Shown here piece after piece: positions 15,679 through 26,008 of a stretch of DNA of 64,000 bases. Made by a program: the position numbers and the translations under genes. The notes beneath the pieces are model-generated. The model was not told where the DNA came from and made no database searches. It worked only from the letters and a program-made list of their open reading frames with translations. Source of the DNA: Candidatus Bathyarchaeota archaeon (GTDB lineage Archaea > Thermoproteota > Bathyarchaeia > Bathyarchaeales > Bathycorpusculaceae); the NCBI GenBank assembly GCA_026014665.1, contig JAOZHX010000017.1, forward strand, positions 1-64,000, given 5' to 3'. The number at the start of each line of letters is the position of its first letter. The first letter of the stretch is position 1.

Positions 15679-18600
15679 ATGCCGTATATAAAAAAGATCG
15701 AGTTAAAAGGCTTTAAGTCTTTTGGACCTCAAACCGTAAAGGTAAACTTAGACAAAGGTTTCACCGCCATTACAGGGCCGAATGGAAGCGGCAAAACCAA
15801 CATTATGGACGCCCTATTGTTCTCGCTTGGCGAACTTAGTACACGGAGGCTCCGAGCTGAGAACTCGGCGAAACTCATTTTTCACGGTTCAGAAAAAGCA
15901 GGGCAAGAAAAGGCGAAAATGGCTAAGGTGGTTGTGCAGTTTGACAACTCGGATGGCCTTATGCCGGTTGATACTACAACCGTAACGATTTCTCGAGAAG
16001 TTTACCGTAACGGGCAGAGTGTTTACCGCTTAAACGGAAGGCGCATGTCCCGCACGCATATCACAGAAACCCTCTCTGTGGCGGCCATCAGCAGCATGAG
16101 CCAAAACATCATTCCTCAGGGCACTATCACAAGACTAACTGACTTAACATCGCTTGAAAGACGAAAAATCATAGAAGACCTCATCGGGATAGCTCAGTAC
16201 GATGCAGAGAAAACTGAAGCTGAAGAGAAACTACGTGCCGCCGATATCTCCATCCGCACTGCAATGGGCAGAATCGATGAAGTACAGAAACGCCTAGATG
16301 ACCTTGAACGCGAGCGCAATCAGCTTTTACGCTATAATTTCATCCAAACGGAAACTAGAAAGTTTCAAGCCATAAAAATCTCAAGCGACATAGCTCAACT
16401 GATAGCAAAGATGAGCGAGAGCCAAGCTCAAACTCAAAAGGTCAAGGAAAGAGTTGACAAGCTTAAAGACCAACGGAATTTTCGTCGAAATAGGCGACAT
16501 GAAATTGAGGGTGAATGGCGTAAAATCAGCGGCGAGAACCTCGAAGCAGGCGGCTCGGAAGTTCTAAAGGTCCAAATAAGGATCGGTGAATTAAAATCAA
16601 AACTCTCCGAGTTAAACGCCAAGGTCAGTTCAGAGCAAGCAACTCTTGAAAGCCTCAAACGTGTAAGAGAAAATAACATCATCCAACGTGAAACCCTTAG
16701 AAAGGAAATCAGGGAGAACCGCCTCAAGATCCGCAGTTTTCGGACTGAACTTGAAAAGCTTAAAAGCCAAAAGGACGAGAAGGAGCTAGCCCATGAAACG
16801 TTAAAGAAGGAAACTGCCCAGCTTTTGGAGGGGCTCGATGGCAATAACCAGCAGATCCGCATCTTAAGTGCCCAAATCGAAAGTCATGTTAAGCGTTTAG
16901 CTTACTTGCGCTCTGAGTATAAGCAGGATAAAGCGGCCTTGCGGCTATGTAATGGAAGAATCAAGAATCTCAACGTTAGGAAAGAAAAATTTTTAGCTAG
17001 CCAAATTGAAATCGAGAAATCGCTCAGCGAACTTGAAAAAGTGCAGCGTGATCAGCGTCTTCAATTGAAGAATCTTGAAAATACTATTGAGCGTAAGCAG
17101 GCTCAGAAGGAAGCTGTCCAAAGAGAGATAACGGAAGCAGAAAAAATCGCTAGTTCAGCCAAAGAGGCTGTGATAGAGTTTGCCACGCAAAGAGACCTTG
17201 CTGCCACCATAGCTGCTGAGGAGAAAGCCCTTAGAAGCATTGAGGAAATGGGCGATGTCGGTGCGATACCTGGCATACACGGCAGACTTCGCAACTTAAT
17301 AAAGATCGACAAGACGTATAAGAAAGCTATTGATGCAGCCGCTACAGGTTGGCTAGATGCACTTGTGGTAAAAGATATCGAGACAGCGTTTACATGTGCT
17401 GAAACACTTCGTCGCATGAAACTGGGCAGAATCAAAATCATTCCGCTGCAGGGTGCCATTAACCTCAAAATCAAGGCGACTCCCAAACGTGAAGGCGTAT
17501 TGGGTCCTCTCTCAGAATTCATGAAGTACGAGAGCGCATTTGACCTTGCAGTTAACTATGTTTTTGGAGACACTATCGTTGTCTCAAACGATAAAACCGG
17601 CTTTGCCCTCTCTAATGAGGGCTATCGTACAGTTACAGTTAATGGTGATCTCTATGAGTCAGGTGCGCTCGAAAGCGGCTATTATAGGGCGCCCATAGAT
17701 TTCTCTACTATAATTCCAAGTGAGAAAGCTCTGCAAAGCCTCGATGTCGCCGTTAAGGCGCTTCAACAACATCTCCTTCAGCGAGGCACCGACATTGTCG
17801 GCATCGAAGAAGATTTAGAGCGCACAAAGATCGAGATTACAAGGCTCTCAGAATCCATCGCCACGTTGGACAGGGAAATCGTTAGAGTAAAACGGGGTGT
17901 TAAGCGAACCCAATTCAACATTAGGCACATAGAAAAATACGGTGGTAAACTTGAACGGGAAGCGGCAGCCTATAAAGGCCGTATGACGCTGTACCGCAAT
18001 GAACGCAACTCGATCAAAAGCGCGCTCAAGAAAATCCATGCTGAAATAGCTAGTTTACGGTTAAAAACTGATATGGTGCATATTCAAGAGCTTGAGGTTC
18101 AACGTGAAAAGCTAGGTGAAGAAGCTAACACCTTGCGCCAGCAAATAGGCTCTATACAAACTGAAATTAACACTTGCCAGTCACAGTTTGATCAGGTGCT
18201 TCGCACAGGCTACAAGAACACGAAAATCCAGGTCTCAAGGATCGAGGCTCAATATCGCAAACTCGAGAAAGAAATCGCCGACACAGTGGTGGAACGCGAT
18301 GCAATCAAAAAAGAAGTCGAAGAGTTAGAGAAAAGTCGTGTGGAACTCTCAAAGGCAGTTCTCTCAGCGCGGGAAGAATCCAAAAAATTCACTTCTCAGA
18401 TTGACGCGATAGATGCAGAATTGCGGACGTTGGATTATGAGTATGAGCAAACAGAGAAGCTTCTTAACCAACTTAACCTCGGCATTGAAACTAACCAATT
18501 GCGGCTTCAGCAGCAACTGGCTCAGTTGAGGTTGTATGGTTATGAACAACCTTTGGAAACTAACCCGCAGCAGGTGCAGGAAGCCGAAACAACTATCCGT

Positions 18601-19230
18601 ATGATGCAGTTTGAGCTTGAACGCATCGGTGCCATCAATCAGCTGGCTGCCCAGCATTATACAGACCAGATACAGCGGTATCGTGAACTCTCCGTGCGCT
18701 TAAACGAGCTGGAACGAGAAAAGCAAGCCATTGTGCAGTTCATGGATGAGATTGAAGCTAAGAAACGCAAGGTTTTCATGACCGCTTTTGATAAAATTAA
18801 CGCGAGCCTTAAAGTTTATTTTTCAAAACTCACTGGCGGTGGAGAAGCAACTTTGAAACTAGAGAATCCTGAGGAGCCGTTTGCTGGCGGCATAGACATG
18901 ATTGTGCAGTTCCCCAACAAACCTTCCATCGTTGTTAGCGGAGCAAGCGGCGGCGAACGAAGTGTTTCCGCAGTCAGCTTTATTTTTTCACTCAAAGAAT
19001 TCACGCCTGCCTCGTTTTATGTGCTCGATGAAGTAGATGCACATCTTGATGCGTTTCATACCGCCAAGTTGGCTGAGGTGCTGCTGGAGGAAGCGGAAAA
19101 AATCCAGTTTATAGTCATCAGCCTGCGTCCTGAAATGGTAAATAAGGCACAGAAAGTCTATGGAGTCTATGAGCGCAATGGCGTTTCAAATGTTGTGACG
19201 GCAAAGTTCCCTGAGGAGGCGAAAAGTTAA
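15679..19230 (+). CDS. smc: Chromosome segregation ATPase SMC
   Basis: SMC is the ATPase arm of the condensin complex that loops and compacts chromosomal DNA. The 1183-residue protein is full length. The N-terminal head has Walker A GPNGSGKTNI (about residue 33). A first long coiled coil covers about 165-505. The hinge runs from about 520 to 665 (DVGAIPGIHGRL to YYRAPIDFS), and a second coiled coil from 690 to 1000. The C-terminal head has the signature SGASGGERSVSA (about 1086) and Walker B FYVLDEVDAHLD (about 1112). The stop overlaps the scpA start by one base. An earlier ATG at 15662 leads to an immediate stop, which supports ATG 15679. Confidence 0.97.
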   Translation: MPYIKKIELKGFKSFGPQTVKVNLDKGFTAITGPNGSGKTNIMDALLFSLGELSTRRLRAENSAKLIFHGSEKAGQEKAKMAKVVVQFDNSDGLMPVDTTTVTISREVYRNGQSVYRLNGRRMSRTHITETLSVAAISSMSQNIIPQGTITRLTDLTSLERRKIIEDLIGIAQYDAEKTEAEEKLRAADISIRTAMGRIDEVQKRLDDLERERNQLLRYNFIQTETRKFQAIKISSDIAQLIAKMSESQAQTQKVKERVDKLKDQRNFRRNRRHEIEGEWRKISGENLEAGGSEVLKVQIRIGELKSKLSELNAKVSSEQATLESLKRVRENNIIQRETLRKEIRENRLKIRSFRTELEKLKSQKDEKELAHETLKKETAQLLEGLDGNNQQIRILSAQIESHVKRLAYLRSEYKQDKAALRLCNGRIKNLNVRKEKFLASQIEIEKSLSELEKVQRDQRLQLKNLENTIERKQAQKEAVQREITEAEKIASSAKEAVIEFATQRDLAATIAAEEKALRSIEEMGDVGAIPGIHGRLRNLIKIDKTYKKAIDAAATGWLDALVVKDIETAFTCAETLRRMKLGRIKIIPLQGAINLKIKATPKREGVLGPLSEFMKYESAFDLAVNYVFGDTIVVSNDKTGFALSNEGYRTVTVNGDLYESGALESGYYRAPIDFSTIIPSEKALQSLDVAVKALQQHLLQRGTDIVGIEEDLERTKIEITRLSESIATLDREIVRVKRGVKRTQFNIRHIEKYGGKLEREAAAYKGRMTLYRNERNSIKSALKKIHAEIASLRLKTDMVHIQELEVQREKLGEEANTLRQQIGSIQTEINTCQSQFDQVLRTGYKNTKIQVSRIEAQYRKLEKEIADTVVERDAIKKEVEELEKSRVELSKAVLSAREESKKFTSQIDAIDAELRTLDYEYEQTEKLLNQLNLGIETNQLRLQQQLAQLRLYGYEQPLETNPQQVQEAETTIRMMQFELERIGAINQLAAQHYTDQIQRYRELSVRLNELEREKQAIVQFMDEIEAKKRKVFMTAFDKINASLKVYFSKLTGGGEATLKLENPEEPFAGGIDMIVQFPNKPSIVVSGASGGERSVSAVSFIFSLKEFTPASFYVLDEVDAHLDAFHTAKLAEVLLEEAEKIQFIVISLRPEMVNKAQKVYGVYERNGVSNVVTAKFPEEAKS

Positions 19231-19952
19231 TGGCATCTTTTCCTTCGACCCCTATGCGTCGGCCGTTTTATTTGCGTCCACCTTGGAACATTCTTTTCGA
19301 GCTAAATAGGTTGGAGAAGCTTACGCCGTGGAACGTTAACATAGCCTACTTGCTTAGGACGTTTCTCGTGGAGATGGAGCGGACAACTCCGGAAAAAGTC
19401 GATTTCCGTGCTTCAGGCATTGCGTTGGATTCCTCCGCTTTGATCTATCTCATGAAATCAAAACTTTTGCTTACTCTGCAAGAGCCACCTGCTCCGCCAA
19501 AGGTGCCTGCAGATTTTGTTCCTCCACCCCTTTTTCTGCCTCTTCGTCATGAATTAACTTCCACGACCATCCAGCATTTGCTCGAAGTTTTAGACGATGT
19601 TTTGAAAGGAGAGAAGTTGCTTCATTTACGACCAGTGGTTGAGCAGCATCCCATCTTACCAGCGGTCACTGATTTGATGCCGCAGTTTGATAAATTCATC
19701 GCTGAATTAGAACTGCAGGTTGACCAGTTGTATGCTGTTTTATGTGAAAAAGTTGGGGGTCAGGGTATAATTGATTTTACCACTCTCTCTAAGGGTGTGA
19801 CTCGAATCGAAGCTTTGCGAATGTTCATTTATCTGTTGTTCCTTGCGCAAGATGGCCTGGTAAGTTTGTGGCAGGATCAAGAATCCGAAGAATTGTACAT
19901 CGCTGTGGGGAAACTGAACGTTGGAAAACCTGAAAAACAACAAAACCTTTGA
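19230..19952 (+). CDS. scpA: Segregation and condensation protein A (kleisin)
   Basis: ScpA is the kleisin that bridges the two SMC heads. The 240-residue protein starts at ATG 19230, overlapping the smc stop. It has the family N-terminus WNILFELNRLEKLTPWNVNIAYLLRTFL, an LDSSALIYLMKSKLLLTLQE helix, and a C-terminal winged helix (GVTRIEALRMFIYLLFLAQDGLVSLWQ) that binds one SMC head. The middle is variable and proline-rich. It overlaps scpB by 32 bases. Length is typical. Confidence 0.93.
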   Translation: MASFPSTPMRRPFYLRPPWNILFELNRLEKLTPWNVNIAYLLRTFLVEMERTTPEKVDFRASGIALDSSALIYLMKSKLLLTLQEPPAPPKVPADFVPPPLFLPLRHELTSTTIQHLLEVLDDVLKGEKLLHLRPVVEQHPILPAVTDLMPQFDKFIAELELQVDQLYAVLCEKVGGQGIIDFTTLSKGVTRIEALRMFIYLLFLAQDGLVSLWQDQESEELYIAVGKLNVGKPEKQQNL

Positions 19953-20580
19953 ACAACCTGTCGACTCAAAGTTTGAGCATGCTCAAGAAGTTGCAGAGCG
20001 GAAAGCTCGTCATCTTGCGCTTTTAGAGGCTGCTCTATATGTTGCGGGTCGTCCTTTAGACCTCAATGAGTTATGTCAGGTTCTTGGTAGTCGCTCCAAG
20101 AAGCGTGCGCAGATGTACGCGGAGATGCTCAAGCAACAGTATGTTATGCGTAACTCGGCTTTGGAGATTTTGGCGTTAAAGGATGAACGTTATGTGTTGC
20201 AAGTGAAAGCGGAATTTACTCCTCTAATTAAGAAGTTGGTAAATCGTCCGTTGTTGTCTTCGGGACCGCTCAAGACTCTTTCGTACATTGCTTATCGTCA
20301 GCCAATTAGCCAGAAAAGGGTTATTCAGGTGCGTGGGCAACATGCTTATGGGCATGTCAAGTTGCTTAAAGATATGGGGTTGATTGTGTCAGAGCGGATG
20401 GGGCGTTCGTTGGTGCTGAAGACCACCGATTATTTTGCGGATTACTTTGGGTTAACACAGGATATTTCAGCGCTGAAAAGGGATCTGCGTAAGATTTTCG
20501 GTGAAGCCGTAAAAGGGGAACAGGCACAAGCTTCGGTTGAGTCTGAGTTTCAGCCTGAGAAAACGGGAGGAACTGGTTAA
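19921..20580 (+). CDS. scpB: Segregation and condensation protein B
   Basis: ScpB is a dimeric winged-helix protein that binds ScpA and completes the SMC-ScpAB complex. The 219-residue product begins at TTG 19921 inside scpA. After a 25-residue lead it has LALLEAALYVAGRPLDLNELCQVLG (first winged helix), LSSGPLKTLSYIAYRQPISQKRVIQVRG and MGLIVSERMGRSLVLKTT (second winged helix), which is the usual arrangement. The C-terminal 30 residues are an acidic tail. The complete smc-scpA-scpB order in one operon means the organism has the full bacterial-like complex. Confidence 0.92.
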   Translation: MENLKNNKTFEQPVDSKFEHAQEVAERKARHLALLEAALYVAGRPLDLNELCQVLGSRSKKRAQMYAEMLKQQYVMRNSALEILALKDERYVLQVKAEFTPLIKKLVNRPLLSSGPLKTLSYIAYRQPISQKRVIQVRGQHAYGHVKLLKDMGLIVSERMGRSLVLKTTDYFADYFGLTQDISALKRDLRKIFGEAVKGEQAQASVESEFQPEKTGGTG

Positions 20581-22288: not shown

Positions 22289-22705
22289 CCTTTGCTAGTT
22301 ATCCATTAGTGTATCATGGATATATTAATTGGTATAATCGGTATGTGTGGTGCTTCAAGTTTAAATAAATATTGCAAGATGCAACCGCGAGTTTAGCTGT
22401 GATTTTTTTTTCTATAGCCCCTTTTATAAAGCTGTATATGGAAACGTATGCAGCTAACGATTGTTGTAGTGTCGTTCTGGAACAGACTCAGAAAAATCCA
22501 AAAAAGAACCCAGAAAAAACGCCTTGACTTTTCAATATACGGTCTCCTGATGAAAACTCATAAAGAAAATCGCACATAAATGAAGTCTACTTCGTAAAAG
22601 TGCAAAAAGGCTTTAACATTACTTTAATCCGCTGTTGGCAAATAAAACTTAACGCGCCGACTAAGGACTAAGTTTAAATTCTTAAGCATTACACACCAAC
22701 TAGTT
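22289..22705. other. Divergent intergenic region, promoter only
   Basis: A 417-base gap between the membrane-protein gene (minus) and the cysteine-tail operon (plus). There is a strong TATA element at 22421-22430. A 43-codon basic frame starts at ATG 22448, which would lie upstream of the predicted transcription start, so I do not call it. No known RNA fold was recognised. Confidence 0.45.
22421..22430 (+). promoter_or_regulatory. Archaeal TATA box upstream of the cysteine-tail/radical-SAM operon
   Basis: CTTTTATAAA is a near-ideal archaeal TATA box. It would start transcription near 22450-22460, leaving a leader of about 250 bases before the first gene of the operon at 22706. A second, nearer promoter cannot be excluded. 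Confidence 0.5.
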
Positions 22706-23065
22706 ATGAGAGTCTTGGCTGTTCTTGGCGGTGTCGCTGCGGCGGTAGTGTTCTTTTTTGCAGTGATTTTTGCGCTTGCCGCTTCTTACTCCCCCGAAGT
22801 TACGGCGAGCAGGCTTTTGACTAGTGGTATTCTTTTCGTTATCGGGCTCGCAATTATAGTTGGAATTTACTATATCTCGCGCAAGCCAAAAACCGTGATT
22901 CAGCGCCTCGAGGTTTCAGGGCGAATGGCGGCATCGCAAATCAGGTGTCCAAACTGCGGCGGAAGTATCAGTGCCAGCGAAATCAAAATAACATCGGGTG
23001 TTCCTTACGTTAAGTGTCCGTATTGTGGCACGACTTTTGAGGTTACTGAGGAACCGAAATGGTGA
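22706..23065 (+). CDS. Membrane protein with C-terminal zinc ribbon
   Basis: A 119-residue protein. Two transmembrane helices (about 4-28 and 38-56) are followed by a cytosolic tail with a zinc ribbon: CPNCGG near residue 78 and CPYCGTTFEV near residue 104. The fold is the common rubredoxin-like knuckle pair. Its end overlaps the next gene by 7 bases, so it is the first gene of a tight three-gene operon with the cysteine-tail protein and the radical SAM enzyme. It may place or present the tail protein at the membrane (inference). Confidence 0.75.
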   Translation: MRVLAVLGGVAAAVVFFFAVIFALAASYSPEVTASRLLTSGILFVIGLAIIVGIYYISRKPKTVIQRLEVSGRMAASQIRCPNCGGSISASEIKITSGVPYVKCPYCGTTFEVTEEPKW

Positions 23066-24675
23066 AAATAAGAAGCTGCACAATCGCCCTCCTTCTCGCG
23101 TTAACGATTGCACTTGCAGCCGCCAGTCTTGCGAGCGCACAGAGCCCCGTCTATACGGTTGACCACGAGTGGGCGCAGATTTTCATCAACCAAGACGGCA
23201 CCATCGATTTAACCTACAACATAACCGTTACGGTAACTTCAGGAACAATGCACTCTTTCGATGTGGGACAGCCCAACCGCGACTTCACCATCGGCGAGGC
23301 AGTGGACCAATACGGCAACCAACTAAACAAGTACAAGTATACACCAGACGTAGCATCGGTGGATTTTGCCACGCCACTGCAGGCGGGTGACAGCATCTGG
23401 TTTATGGTTACCACGAACGTTCCGGGGTTGTTTTACAATGACTCCATGAACCCTAGCAATTTGGGGATGCAGTTTATTCCACAGTGGACACCCGTGCAAA
23501 TCAACGACGTTCGTGTTCAGATTGTTCTGCCGCCCGGCGTTGGCGTGGATGAAGTGAAGACCACCGAGAACTTCTACAATGGCACATCGACTGTGGAGGG
23601 CAGGTTGGCGGTTTACTGGGAAAAACCCTTCCTTCAACCAAACGAGCAGTTTCCCGTAGGCGTTTCTTTCCCCGCAAAGTACATGCCAGACTACAGTCCA
23701 CCTCAGCCGGCAGGCGGGTCAGATTTGGGGTTGATTGTTCCAGTGGCGGTTTTCGTGATAATCGCAGCTGTCTTAGTCGTAGTAGTAGTTGGCGTAACGC
23801 GGAAAAGCGCATACACCGCTCCCAAAGTTAGCATGGAAACCCTTGGCGTGAAACGAGGCTTAACCGCTGTGGAAGCCTCCTACTTGTTGGAACTTAAGCC
23901 AACCCAAATCGTCACCGAAATCCTCTACAGTCTCTTGCAGAAACGGGCGGTGTGGGCGGAGCAAACTAATCCGTCACTGCGGCTTAAGGTTCTGCCACCC
24001 TACGAGAATAAGACAGGCACCGATGAGAATCCTTTGCGGTACTACGAGATTGATTTTCTCCATGCCATTAAAGTTGACGGAACGCTCGATGAAGATAAGT
24101 TAGCGCGTGCCATCATGTTTCTCCGTGACACGGTAGAGCAGAAGCTTGAGGGTTACAGCCGAAAAGACACCGTGGATTACTACCGAAAAATCGTGGCGCA
24201 GGCGTGGAGTCAGGTGGAGAAAGCGGGCACTGTGGAGTTGGCATCAAACGCTTACGACGAACAGCTGCTATGGCTTATGCTCGACCCCAATCAACGAGCA
24301 CGCACCGAAACCGTCTTTCGCGACCGCACTTTTGTGCCGAATCCCCTGTGGTTCTGGTGGTGGTACGGCTACACCACGTATCACCCTCATCCAACGTATA
24401 CACCAAACATAACTGCTCCAGCCCAATCCGCCAAGCCCCCAGCAATCCCAGGAGCAGAATTCGCCAACAACATCGCAACAGCCGTGGAGAAAACCTCAAA
24501 CAGCATAGTCGTCAACATCGAAAAATTCGCCAACGCCATCGTTCCGCCGCCACCCAAAGCTTCCCATCAACCTGCAAGAAAAGGTTCAGGTTGCGTATGT
24601 GCCTGTGCAGCTTGCGCTTGTGCGTGCGCCTGCGTGTCGTGCGCCTGTGCCTGCGCTGGTGGAGGCGGACGTTAA
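23059..24675 (+). CDS. DUF2207-like membrane protein with ten-cysteine C-terminal tail
   Basis: A 538-residue protein. Residues 1-27 are a signal peptide. About 30-215 form an extracellular beta domain like that of DUF2207 proteins. A transmembrane helix covers about 223-246, and a cytosolic helical/winged part follows with GLTAVEASYLLELKPTQIVTEILYSLL. An aromatic patch (WFWWWYGY) and a helical linker lead to a remarkable tail, residues 509-538, starting GSGCVCACAA. It has ten cysteines (512-532) mostly separated by single alanines, then GGGGR at the end. Apart from Cys7 in the signal peptide, the protein has no other cysteine. The tail faces the cytosol, where the radical SAM enzyme encoded one base downstream could modify it. 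That function is inference. Confidence 0.8.
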   Translation: MVKIRSCTIALLLALTIALAAASLASAQSPVYTVDHEWAQIFINQDGTIDLTYNITVTVTSGTMHSFDVGQPNRDFTIGEAVDQYGNQLNKYKYTPDVASVDFATPLQAGDSIWFMVTTNVPGLFYNDSMNPSNLGMQFIPQWTPVQINDVRVQIVLPPGVGVDEVKTTENFYNGTSTVEGRLAVYWEKPFLQPNEQFPVGVSFPAKYMPDYSPPQPAGGSDLGLIVPVAVFVIIAAVLVVVVVGVTRKSAYTAPKVSMETLGVKRGLTAVEASYLLELKPTQIVTEILYSLLQKRAVWAEQTNPSLRLKVLPPYENKTGTDENPLRYYEIDFLHAIKVDGTLDEDKLARAIMFLRDTVEQKLEGYSRKDTVDYYRKIVAQAWSQVEKAGTVELASNAYDEQLLWLMLDPNQRARTETVFRDRTFVPNPLWFWWWYGYTTYHPHPTYTPNITAPAQSAKPPAIPGAEFANNIATAVEKTSNSIVVNIEKFANAIVPPPPKASHQPARKGSGCVCACAACACACACVSCACACAGGGGR

Positions 24676-24676
24676 A

Positions 24677-26008
24677 ATGAACCTGTTTAAGAAGAAGGTT
24701 CCCCATGGCAGGTTTACTTACCGTGGTGAGGGCGAGTTTGCTGGGATGTCGCTTCAACTGCGCATCGAAGAAGATGGGCGAGGTGTAATGGTGATTAACG
24801 CTAACACGATTCTGCACCTAAACCAATCGGCGTCGGCGTACGCGTACTTTTTCATGCAGGGTTTAACTGAGGAGCAGGTGCAGGCGAAGATTCGACGCAT
24901 GTACCGCGTGGCCGCCAAAGATGCAAAACGAGATTATCAAAAACTCGTCTACACAATAAGCACGCTGGCGCAAACCGAAAAAATCGACCCTGTCACTTTT
25001 TTGGAAATCGAAAAGGAAGAACCCTTCACCCACAAGTACTCTGCGCCACTGCGGATGGACGTGGCTTTGACGTTTAGATGCCAAAACGACTGCATCCACT
25101 GCTATGCCGGCGGACCCCACCAAACCCCAGAGTTGACGACTGAGGAGTGGAAAACCGCCATCGACAAGCTCAGTGAAGCGGGCGTTTTCATTTTAACGTT
25201 CACCGGCGGCGAACCCACGTTGCGAGAGGATTTGCCTGAACTGTTGGTGTATGCGCAAAACAAGGGCATGGTCACGGGCTTAATCACCAACGGGCGAAGG
25301 CTCAAGGACAAGGCTTACGTGGAGAGGCTGGAGAAGGCAGGGCTGGATTTTGTGCAGGTCACGGTGGAGTCTCATAATCCGAAAGTGCACGATGCCATGA
25401 CGGGCTCGGTGGGCAGTTGGGTGGAAACCGTGGAGGGCATAAAAAACGCAGTGCAATCCCAGATTTACGTTTCAACCAACACGACGCTGAGCAAACACAA
25501 CGCCGACGACTTCCTTGCCACAATCGACTTCATCAAGGGCTTAGGCGTGGATGCGTTTGGCTGTAACAGCCTCATTTACAGCGGCAAAGCGCCCGCTGCA
25601 AGCCAAGAATTTGCATTGTCCAGTGAAGAATTAAAGACGCTTCTGCCCAAGGTGCGTGATAAAGCTCACTTGATTGGTTTAAAATTCCTCTGGTACACCC
25701 CCACGCAGTACTGCCAATTCGACCCTGTGCAACTGGGCTTAGGCGTAAAAAGCTGTACGGCAGCCATGATTAACGCTTGTGTCGGACCCAGCGGAGACGT
25801 CTACCCCTGCCAAAGCTACTTTGAAAACCTAGGCAACATCCTCACCACGCCGTGGAAGAAAATTTGGCATCACCCTCTGGCGGAAAAACTACGCCGCAGA
25901 GGCTACGTCGAGGAAAAATGCAAAGACTGCGTGCAGCTGCAGGTTTGCGGCGGCGGATGCCCCTTAGAACTGGAAAACAAAGAACACCAATGCGGCACAA
26001 CAACATAA
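24677..26008 (+). CDS. Radical SAM/SPASM protein with PqqD-like N-terminal domain
   Basis: A 443-residue enzyme. The start ATG 24677 lies one base after the stop of the cysteine-tail gene; a longer frame from 24599 would run through the tail codons and is rejected. Residues 15-85 resemble a PqqD-like peptide-recognition domain (GVMVINANTILHLNQSASAY). The radical SAM core has the 4Fe-4S motif C135xxxC139xxC142 and the glycine-rich FTGGEPTLRE. The C-terminal SPASM domain has the cysteine set KSC, ACVGPSGDVYPCQ and CKDCVQLQVCGGGCP for two more clusters. Such enzymes usually make thioether or carbon-carbon links in ribosomal peptides. The tail encoded just upstream is the obvious substrate candidate. 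Confidence 0.9.
   Translation: MNLFKKKVPHGRFTYRGEGEFAGMSLQLRIEEDGRGVMVINANTILHLNQSASAYAYFFMQGLTEEQVQAKIRRMYRVAAKDAKRDYQKLVYTISTLAQTEKIDPVTFLEIEKEEPFTHKYSAPLRMDVALTFRCQNDCIHCYAGGPHQTPELTTEEWKTAIDKLSEAGVFILTFTGGEPTLREDLPELLVYAQNKGMVTGLITNGRRLKDKAYVERLEKAGLDFVQVTVESHNPKVHDAMTGSVGSWVETVEGIKNAVQSQIYVSTNTTLSKHNADDFLATIDFIKGLGVDAFGCNSLIYSGKAPAASQEFALSSEELKTLLPKVRDKAHLIGLKFLWYTPTQYCQFDPVQLGLGVKSCTAAMINACVGPSGDVYPCQSYFENLGNILTTPWKKIWHHPLAEKLRRRGYVEEKCKDCVQLQVCGGGCPLELENKEHQCGTTT

Follow-up and report, generated by a model that had tools for sequence, protein, structure and literature searches.

The window analysed here, 64,000 nucleotides of contig JAOZHX010000017.1 from a Candidatus Bathyarchaeota archaeon (host genome 2.37 Mb in 36 contigs), contains three tightly linked genes on the + strand, which encode a two-helix zinc-ribbon protein (22706-23065), a 538-amino-acid membrane protein ending in CVCACAACACACACVSCACACAGGGGR (23059-24675; the tail protein) and a radical S-adenosylmethionine (SAM)/SPASM enzyme (24677-26008). 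The arrangement of the genes suggested that the enzyme might act on its neighbour, and comparison with other genomes revealed that the cysteine-rich tail and the enzyme are conserved and linked. These observations suggest in-place chemical remodelling of a membrane-protein tail by the cell. We assign a probability of about 0.6 to the reading that the radical SAM/SPASM enzyme modifies the Cys-Ala tail where it stands, whatever the chemistry. The coordinates of the trio confirm what a previous interpretation of this DNA (hereafter the sequence-only reading) had described: a 7-base overlap between the first two genes, then a 1-base gap.

Conservation of the cysteine-alanine tail

The tail protein has eleven cysteines. 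Ten lie within the last 27 residues (residues 512-538, 24592-24672, + strand), and one is at residue 7, in the signal sequence. This count agrees with the sequence-only reading, which had placed ten cysteines at the C-terminus and the only other one in the signal peptide.

We read 84 loci in the class, representing 73 distinct ones, and four loci outside it, which together gave 77 copies; some of the genes were partial. In the 74 copies with a readable tail end the cysteine tail was always present. Seventy of these tails had ten cysteines with the spacing 2,2,3,2,2,2,3,2,2. Of the four deviating tails, three lacked the first cysteine only and one (L044) lacked one two-residue unit; the alternation of the cysteines never slips across the readable tails. 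The three unreadable copies were L051, which is cut by a contig end, L085, which stops 39 bases before the contig end with approximately 140 residues missing, and L090, which has a stop inside the tail. Tail proteins without a cysteine tail beside the same enzyme, which the sequence-only reading had named as evidence against itself, were not found among unbroken, complete tail proteins.

The stop in L090 (G036:C1:1860000-1870000, tail gene on the - strand) is an in-frame TGA at the third cysteine codon of an otherwise typical tail. A sequencing error, gene decay or recoding could each account for it.

Within the tail protein, conservation is highest in the tail. In 65 sequences, mostly picked for having a tail, the commonest residue had a mean share of 0.91 in the tail, compared with 0.55 for residues 28-222 and 0.68 for residues 251-420. 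Compared with the window protein, six of eight distant copies had 31-35% identity in the ectodomain, whereas identity in the tail was 78-96%. Codon usage was analysed in 68 canonical tails of the 73 distinct loci, collected with a pattern that fixes the cysteines (L044, L051, L066, L085 and L090 were left out). Over 22 codons, pairs of tails differed by 12.5 synonymous changes and by 1.26 residues, an approximately tenfold excess of synonymous variation, and both TGC and TGT were used at every cysteine position. Because the codons drift while the residues hold, the tail is neither a low-complexity artefact nor a DNA repeat, and this explanation was rejected.

Linkage of the tail protein and the enzyme

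Of 250 genomes of the class, 72 carry the tail protein (39 among the 120 of high quality), and 68 carry an orthologue of the enzyme. Each of these 68 genomes also has the tail protein. The line for orthologues, E<1e-50, was drawn after a gap in the list had been seen, and as at most six candidates were scored per genome, a lower-ranked orthologue would escape the search. In the four genomes with the tail protein only (G081, G084, G159 and G224) the contig ends before the enzyme gene could be complete. In two of them the reading frame also breaks off earlier, 39 bases (G081) and approximately 580 bases (G224) before the contig end, and these contigs are too short for the missing part.

Fifty-five loci with wider flanks were compared by grouping frames of at least 70 residues by similarity, without annotation. 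The flanks differ in length, and the loci are partly non-independent (L049 and L061 are the same place). The tail protein and the enzyme were each present in 54 loci and the zinc-ribbon protein in 42; since the next commonest family occurred in just 10, the conserved unit consists of these three genes.

A search of the phylum matched 29 of 398 genomes, 25 from the same class and four from outside. One of the outside genomes, G393, shares the gene order of the window. G491 and G559 instead start with the enzyme gene, carry the zinc-ribbon gene on the other strand and end with the tail-protein gene. In the class of G491, 3 of 81 genomes matched; G491 itself has an additional frame of 190 amino acids between zinc ribbon and enzyme. 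In G544 the tail protein and the enzyme are adjacent, and no zinc-ribbon gene was found beside the pair in the stretch fetched. The zinc-ribbon protein is the usual, not the universal, partner of the tail/enzyme pair. The pairing anticipated by the sequence-only reading thus recurs across the class (68 of 68) and in G491, G559, G393 and G544.

Protein distances of the enzyme and of the tail-protein body correlate at 0.88 in the 55 loci, a value that co-inheritance alone would give likewise. Linkage that survives rearrangement is better evidence. With the 68/68 co-occurrence and a trio kept together under altered gene order, we rejected the possibility that the genes are chance neighbours. A scan of the whole collection, with exact stretches of one protein as query, found 14 loci with relatives of the tail protein: twelve in Candidatus Bathyarchaeota, one in a Crenarchaeota archaeon and one in a miscellaneous Crenarchaeota group-1 archaeon.

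Predicted location of the tail

Hydropathy of the window protein revealed a signal-like segment (residues 7-25) and one further hydrophobic segment (residues 226-244), after which positive charges are richer. Together with the structural model this places a signal sequence at approximately residues 1-27 (23059-23139) and a membrane helix at residues 226-250 (23734-23808). The predicted order is signal sequence, ectodomain, one membrane helix, cytosolic domain and Cys-Ala tail. Among 65 full-length homologues, 49 have two hydrophobic segments and 16 have three. The distribution of positive charges voted for an inside C-terminus in 62 of the 65, gave a tie in three and never voted for outside. 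From this charge placement the tail and the enzyme are predicted to share the cytosol, and the topology assumed in the sequence-only reading is supported as a prediction.

The enzyme resembles peptide-modifying radical SAM enzymes

The window enzyme (443 amino acids) passed the Pfam cut-offs of both Radical_SAM (PF04055, 94.9 bits, cut-off 29.5) and SPASM (PF13186, 38.8 bits, cut-off 21.5), and the two domains are certain, as had been proposed from the single sequence. The radical SAM core (25058-25570) contains the CX3CX2C motif, formed by C135, C139 and C142. This motif is intact in 77 of the 78 rows of the alignment (the window enzyme was entered twice); the exception is L241, described below. 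Nine of the 78 rows are incomplete or scrambled further on, which we ascribe to contig ends and N runs. The SPASM domain (25712-25966) has the pattern C360...GX4C378...CX2CX5CX3C, the last four cysteines being C415, C418, C424 and C428. All six and C346 are invariant in 15 diverse members.

The N-terminal region (approximately residues 11-99, 24707-24973) is probably a PqqD-like domain of the RiPP recognition element (RRE) type (RiPP, ribosomally synthesized and post-translationally modified peptide). In the modest-confidence model its strands are followed by three helices, an order that fits PqqD/RRE. The PqqD profile matched 12 of the 15 diverse members at E<=1 (best 3.7e-5). The PqqD-like domain claimed by the sequence-only reading is therefore recognizable in most members, and the window copy itself falls below the profile cut-off (E=0.19, 12.5 bits, cut-off 23.4).

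The profile search against solved proteins gave SkfB as the best match (5e-30), over residues 128-400 only. Taking the sequence and structure comparisons together, SkfB leads and PqqE or SuiB comes next. In the fold comparison (Foldseek) SkfB and SuiB rank first, followed by PqqE, BlsE and the sactipeptide enzyme 5why, with viperins and anSMEcpe close behind; the alignments to SkfB, SuiB and 5why cover 391-484 columns. The likeness to peptide-modifying enzymes on which the earlier interpretation had built was thus reproduced in the structural comparison.

Enzyme copies away from a tail

A second enzyme copy in G041 (L241:2134-3420, + strand, 45% identity) has only two of the three cluster cysteines, and the alignment does not show which was lost. 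It has Tyr at the position of C378, and the last four SPASM cysteines are missing and were not found downstream in any of the three frames. No CXC run was found in the six frames of the 8-kb stretch of L241. On its sequence this copy is a candidate pseudo-radical-SAM protein. Degeneration exactly where the tail is missing would agree with a role of the tail as substrate, but this is one case only.

Three further pieces of enzyme without a tail (L246 in G246, L249 in G222 and L259 in G241) each end at or beside an N run, so that these scaffolds cannot be judged. Five other genomes of the class (G090, G096, G099, G174 and G223) contain distant relatives only (1e-40 to 1e-45, 31-35% identity). 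No CXC run in frames of at least 30 residues was found in four stretches, from three of these five genomes and around the second enzyme of G177. In G090 the gene beside the distant relative is presumably a uroporphyrinogen decarboxylase. Enzyme homologues standing consistently beside unrelated substrates, which would have spoken against the sequence-only reading, were not seen: the only judgeable copy away from a tail, L241, is degenerate.

A proposed mechanism and its alternatives

In the mechanism we propose, the PqqD/RRE-like domain would guide the enzyme to the tail region at the cytosolic face of the membrane, where the enzyme would cross-link tail cysteines. Thioethers between Cys sulfur and C-alpha, as made by SkfB and RumMC2, are in our analysis the single most likely chemistry, a choice that we make tentatively. 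In the tail, small residues alternate with the cysteines, which fall into groups of three, four and three separated by two-residue spacers. With such spacers neighbouring strands would pair Cys with Cys and Ala with Ala, placing all thiols on the same side of a three-stranded meander. The observed tail variants keep the parity that the meander requires. The tail is unstructured in the model of the tail protein, so the meander is not predicted by that model. The favoured model of RumC2 has thioethers joining a CXC pair within a hairpin (PMC6779426).

Since the surroundings of the trio show no other widely conserved gene family, the product would most likely remain on the protein, and the modified tail would probably serve as a rigid sulfur-rich patch for metal or cluster binding, or for redox work. 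In its fullest and more speculative form, which we consider possible rather than likely, RiPP-type radical chemistry would give a membrane protein a permanent component: a three-strand Cys/Ala platform, cross-linked and fixed at the cytosolic surface, with up to ten sulfurs on one face, holding a metal or cluster and coupling it to the ectodomain. Such a platform would amount to a cofactor that the protein carries and that is formed from its own tail, as opposed to a secreted peptide.

Several points weigh against modification of the tail by the enzyme. The conserved cysteines could be explained by reduced thiols alone. Because the trio is inherited together, the statistics are to a large extent not independent. 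The models are of modest confidence (mean predicted local distance difference test 59 for the tail protein, 63 for the enzyme), and in the full-length fold matches TM-scores are below 0.5 with root mean square deviations above 20, so that domain placement is not matched. The enzyme scored under every cut-off of the NCBIfam equivalogs (PqqE, mycofactocin, SkfB, AlbA, heme, ACGX) within the best 25 of 80 matched families; within the same 25 the top score, 146 of 500 bits, was against the heme d1 family TIGR04055. With no equivalog fit and with heme-pathway families among the best-scoring relatives, specificity for a peptide is a matter of inference. The link made by SuiB, which ranks among the best fold matches, is carbon-carbon and not a thioether.

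Another in-place modification of the tail (a carbon-carbon cross-link, epimerisation, conversion of Cys to formylglycine or decarboxylation) is a variant within our preferred reading, and a somewhat doubtful one. SPASM enzymes are chemically diverse, and the structure matches include SuiB, which forms a carbon-carbon link, as well as anSMEcpe, which was solved with Cys peptides; the best match both by fold and by sequence is, however, the thioether synthase SkfB, and dense cysteines beside small residues suit thioether donors and acceptors.

The main rival holds that the tail remains unmodified and forms a thiolate platform for a metal or iron-sulfur cluster. This platform would work together with the enzyme, for example by donating electrons, supplying a cluster or docking it at the membrane, and the substrate of the enzyme would be a different molecule. 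Ten evenly spaced cytosolic thiols would suit metal or cluster binding, most loci (42 of 55) also encode the zinc-ribbon protein, and the enzyme scores well against the heme-pathway families. The PqqD-like domain (12 of 15 members) and the likeness to SkfB and SuiB point instead to a peptide substrate, and another gene widely conserved beside the trio is lacking; we regard this rival as unlikely. The missing fourth gene also argues against the tail being a true precursor, which the enzyme would modify and a protease encoded elsewhere would release as a small Cys-Ala product (a cofactor, metallophore or signal), as for pyrroloquinoline quinone or mycofactocin. The enzyme's scores against PqqE and the mycofactocin maturase and its PqqD-like domain would agree with a released product, but the cytosolic body is conserved (0.68, residues 251-420), which a disposable leader would not need, and we consider this route improbable. 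In-place modification by the radical SAM/SPASM enzyme remains the preferred reading. A short tail of nearly invariant register, with the enzyme encoded by the next gene, allows the putative substrate and the enzyme to be expressed together.

Comparison with known systems

The closest known arrangement is that of the TIGR04222 membrane proteins with enzymes of the multinuclear non-heme iron-dependent oxidative (MNIO) type. As described in PMC12452194, these, too, are large membrane proteins with a C-terminal low-complexity cysteine tail and an adjoining metalloenzyme thought to modify it. Compared with the MNIO enzyme, periplasmic location and Ser/Gly-rich run reported there, the system described here has a radical SAM enzyme, a predicted cytosolic tail and a fixed Cys-Ala register. 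According to PMC12452194, more than a quarter of the TIGR04222 proteins have no C-proximal cysteines and one third of the genomes have no MNIO genes, whereas linkage is strict here. TIGR04222 did not match the window tail protein (E up to 10) or the 14 members (E up to 1).

Like SkfB, SuiB, CteB (5why) and RumMC2, the enzyme has a radical SAM core and a SPASM domain behind a probable RRE-like domain at its N-terminus, and the tail shares CXC with the RumC2 substrate (PMC6779426). In contrast to those enzymes, the likely substrate here is the end of a 538-amino-acid membrane protein, not a short leader/core peptide, and the system is archaeal and has no widely conserved extra gene. A short leader/core precursor peptide, as in sactipeptides and ranthipeptides, was not found: the only conserved motif-bearing partner is the 538-amino-acid protein, and other families occur in at most 10 of the 55 loci. 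The ACGX system (TIGR04340) also pairs a radical SAM/SPASM enzyme with a cysteine repeat, which differs from the Cys-Ala tail; the window enzyme scored 68.8 of 400 bits against TIGR04340. Peptides with Asp-Cys repeats (cluster 59, motif also in cluster 115) resemble the tail in that cysteine alternates with a fixed residue beside a radical SAM/SPASM enzyme, but in PMC9062424 they are free peptides, uncharacterised there, whereas the Ala-Cys run described here is carried by a membrane protein.

Radical SAM/SPASM enzymes with an RRE and cysteine-tailed membrane proteins beside a modifying enzyme (TIGR04222/MNIO) are known in kind. The trio of a Cys-Ala tail with a radical SAM enzyme is not described in the open-licence literature among the matches listed. 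Within this literature and the NCBIfam and Pfam scans, the combination, found in archaea and with a fixed Cys-Ala register and a predicted cytosolic tail, appears to be new. If the preferred reading is true, radical SAM peptide chemistry serves in a major uncultured lineage of archaea to complete a large membrane protein and not to yield a small product. The system would then be an archaeal counterpart, with different chemistry, of the bacterial cysteine-tailed membrane proteins with MNIO enzymes.

Other features of the locus

The predicted ectodomain of the tail protein (approximately residues 28-222, 23140-23724) is strand-rich. Its fold matched 8b6l_O (E 6.8e-13, low TM-score), a chain which we take to be ribophorin I/OST1 of the eukaryotic oligosaccharyltransferase, and one relative of the tail protein matched Pfam Ribophorin_I at 0.0038. 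The ectodomain is possibly an archaeal relative of the ribophorin I subunit. DUF2207 proteins have a signal sequence, ectodomain, membrane helix, cytosolic domain and low-complexity end in the same order as the tail protein. The matches of the tail-protein family to DUF2207 (PF09972) are only remote: 4 of 14 members (best 1.6e-5) and 4 of 17 in another set (best 7.1e-4). It is the ectodomain that is remotely DUF2207-N-like. A profile scan found no PF09972 match in the window tail protein or its genome.

The first gene of the trio (22706-23065) encodes a protein of 119 amino acids with hydrophobic segments at residues 3-21 and 37-55, followed by a C-terminal CPNC...CPYC zinc ribbon that scored 24.3 bits against TIGR02098 (cut-off 20.9). 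The CxxC-n-CxxC pattern is retained by all 61 zinc-ribbon homologues found in the distinct loci. Approximately 30 bases 5′ of the first ATG, inspection by eye revealed the TATA-like sequence TTTAAAT (22673-22679, + strand), a possible archaeal promoter for a leaderless transcript. Approximately 2 kb upstream of the trio, at 15679-20580, lie a gene for an SMC-like protein and then two genes that by eye look like ScpA and ScpB.

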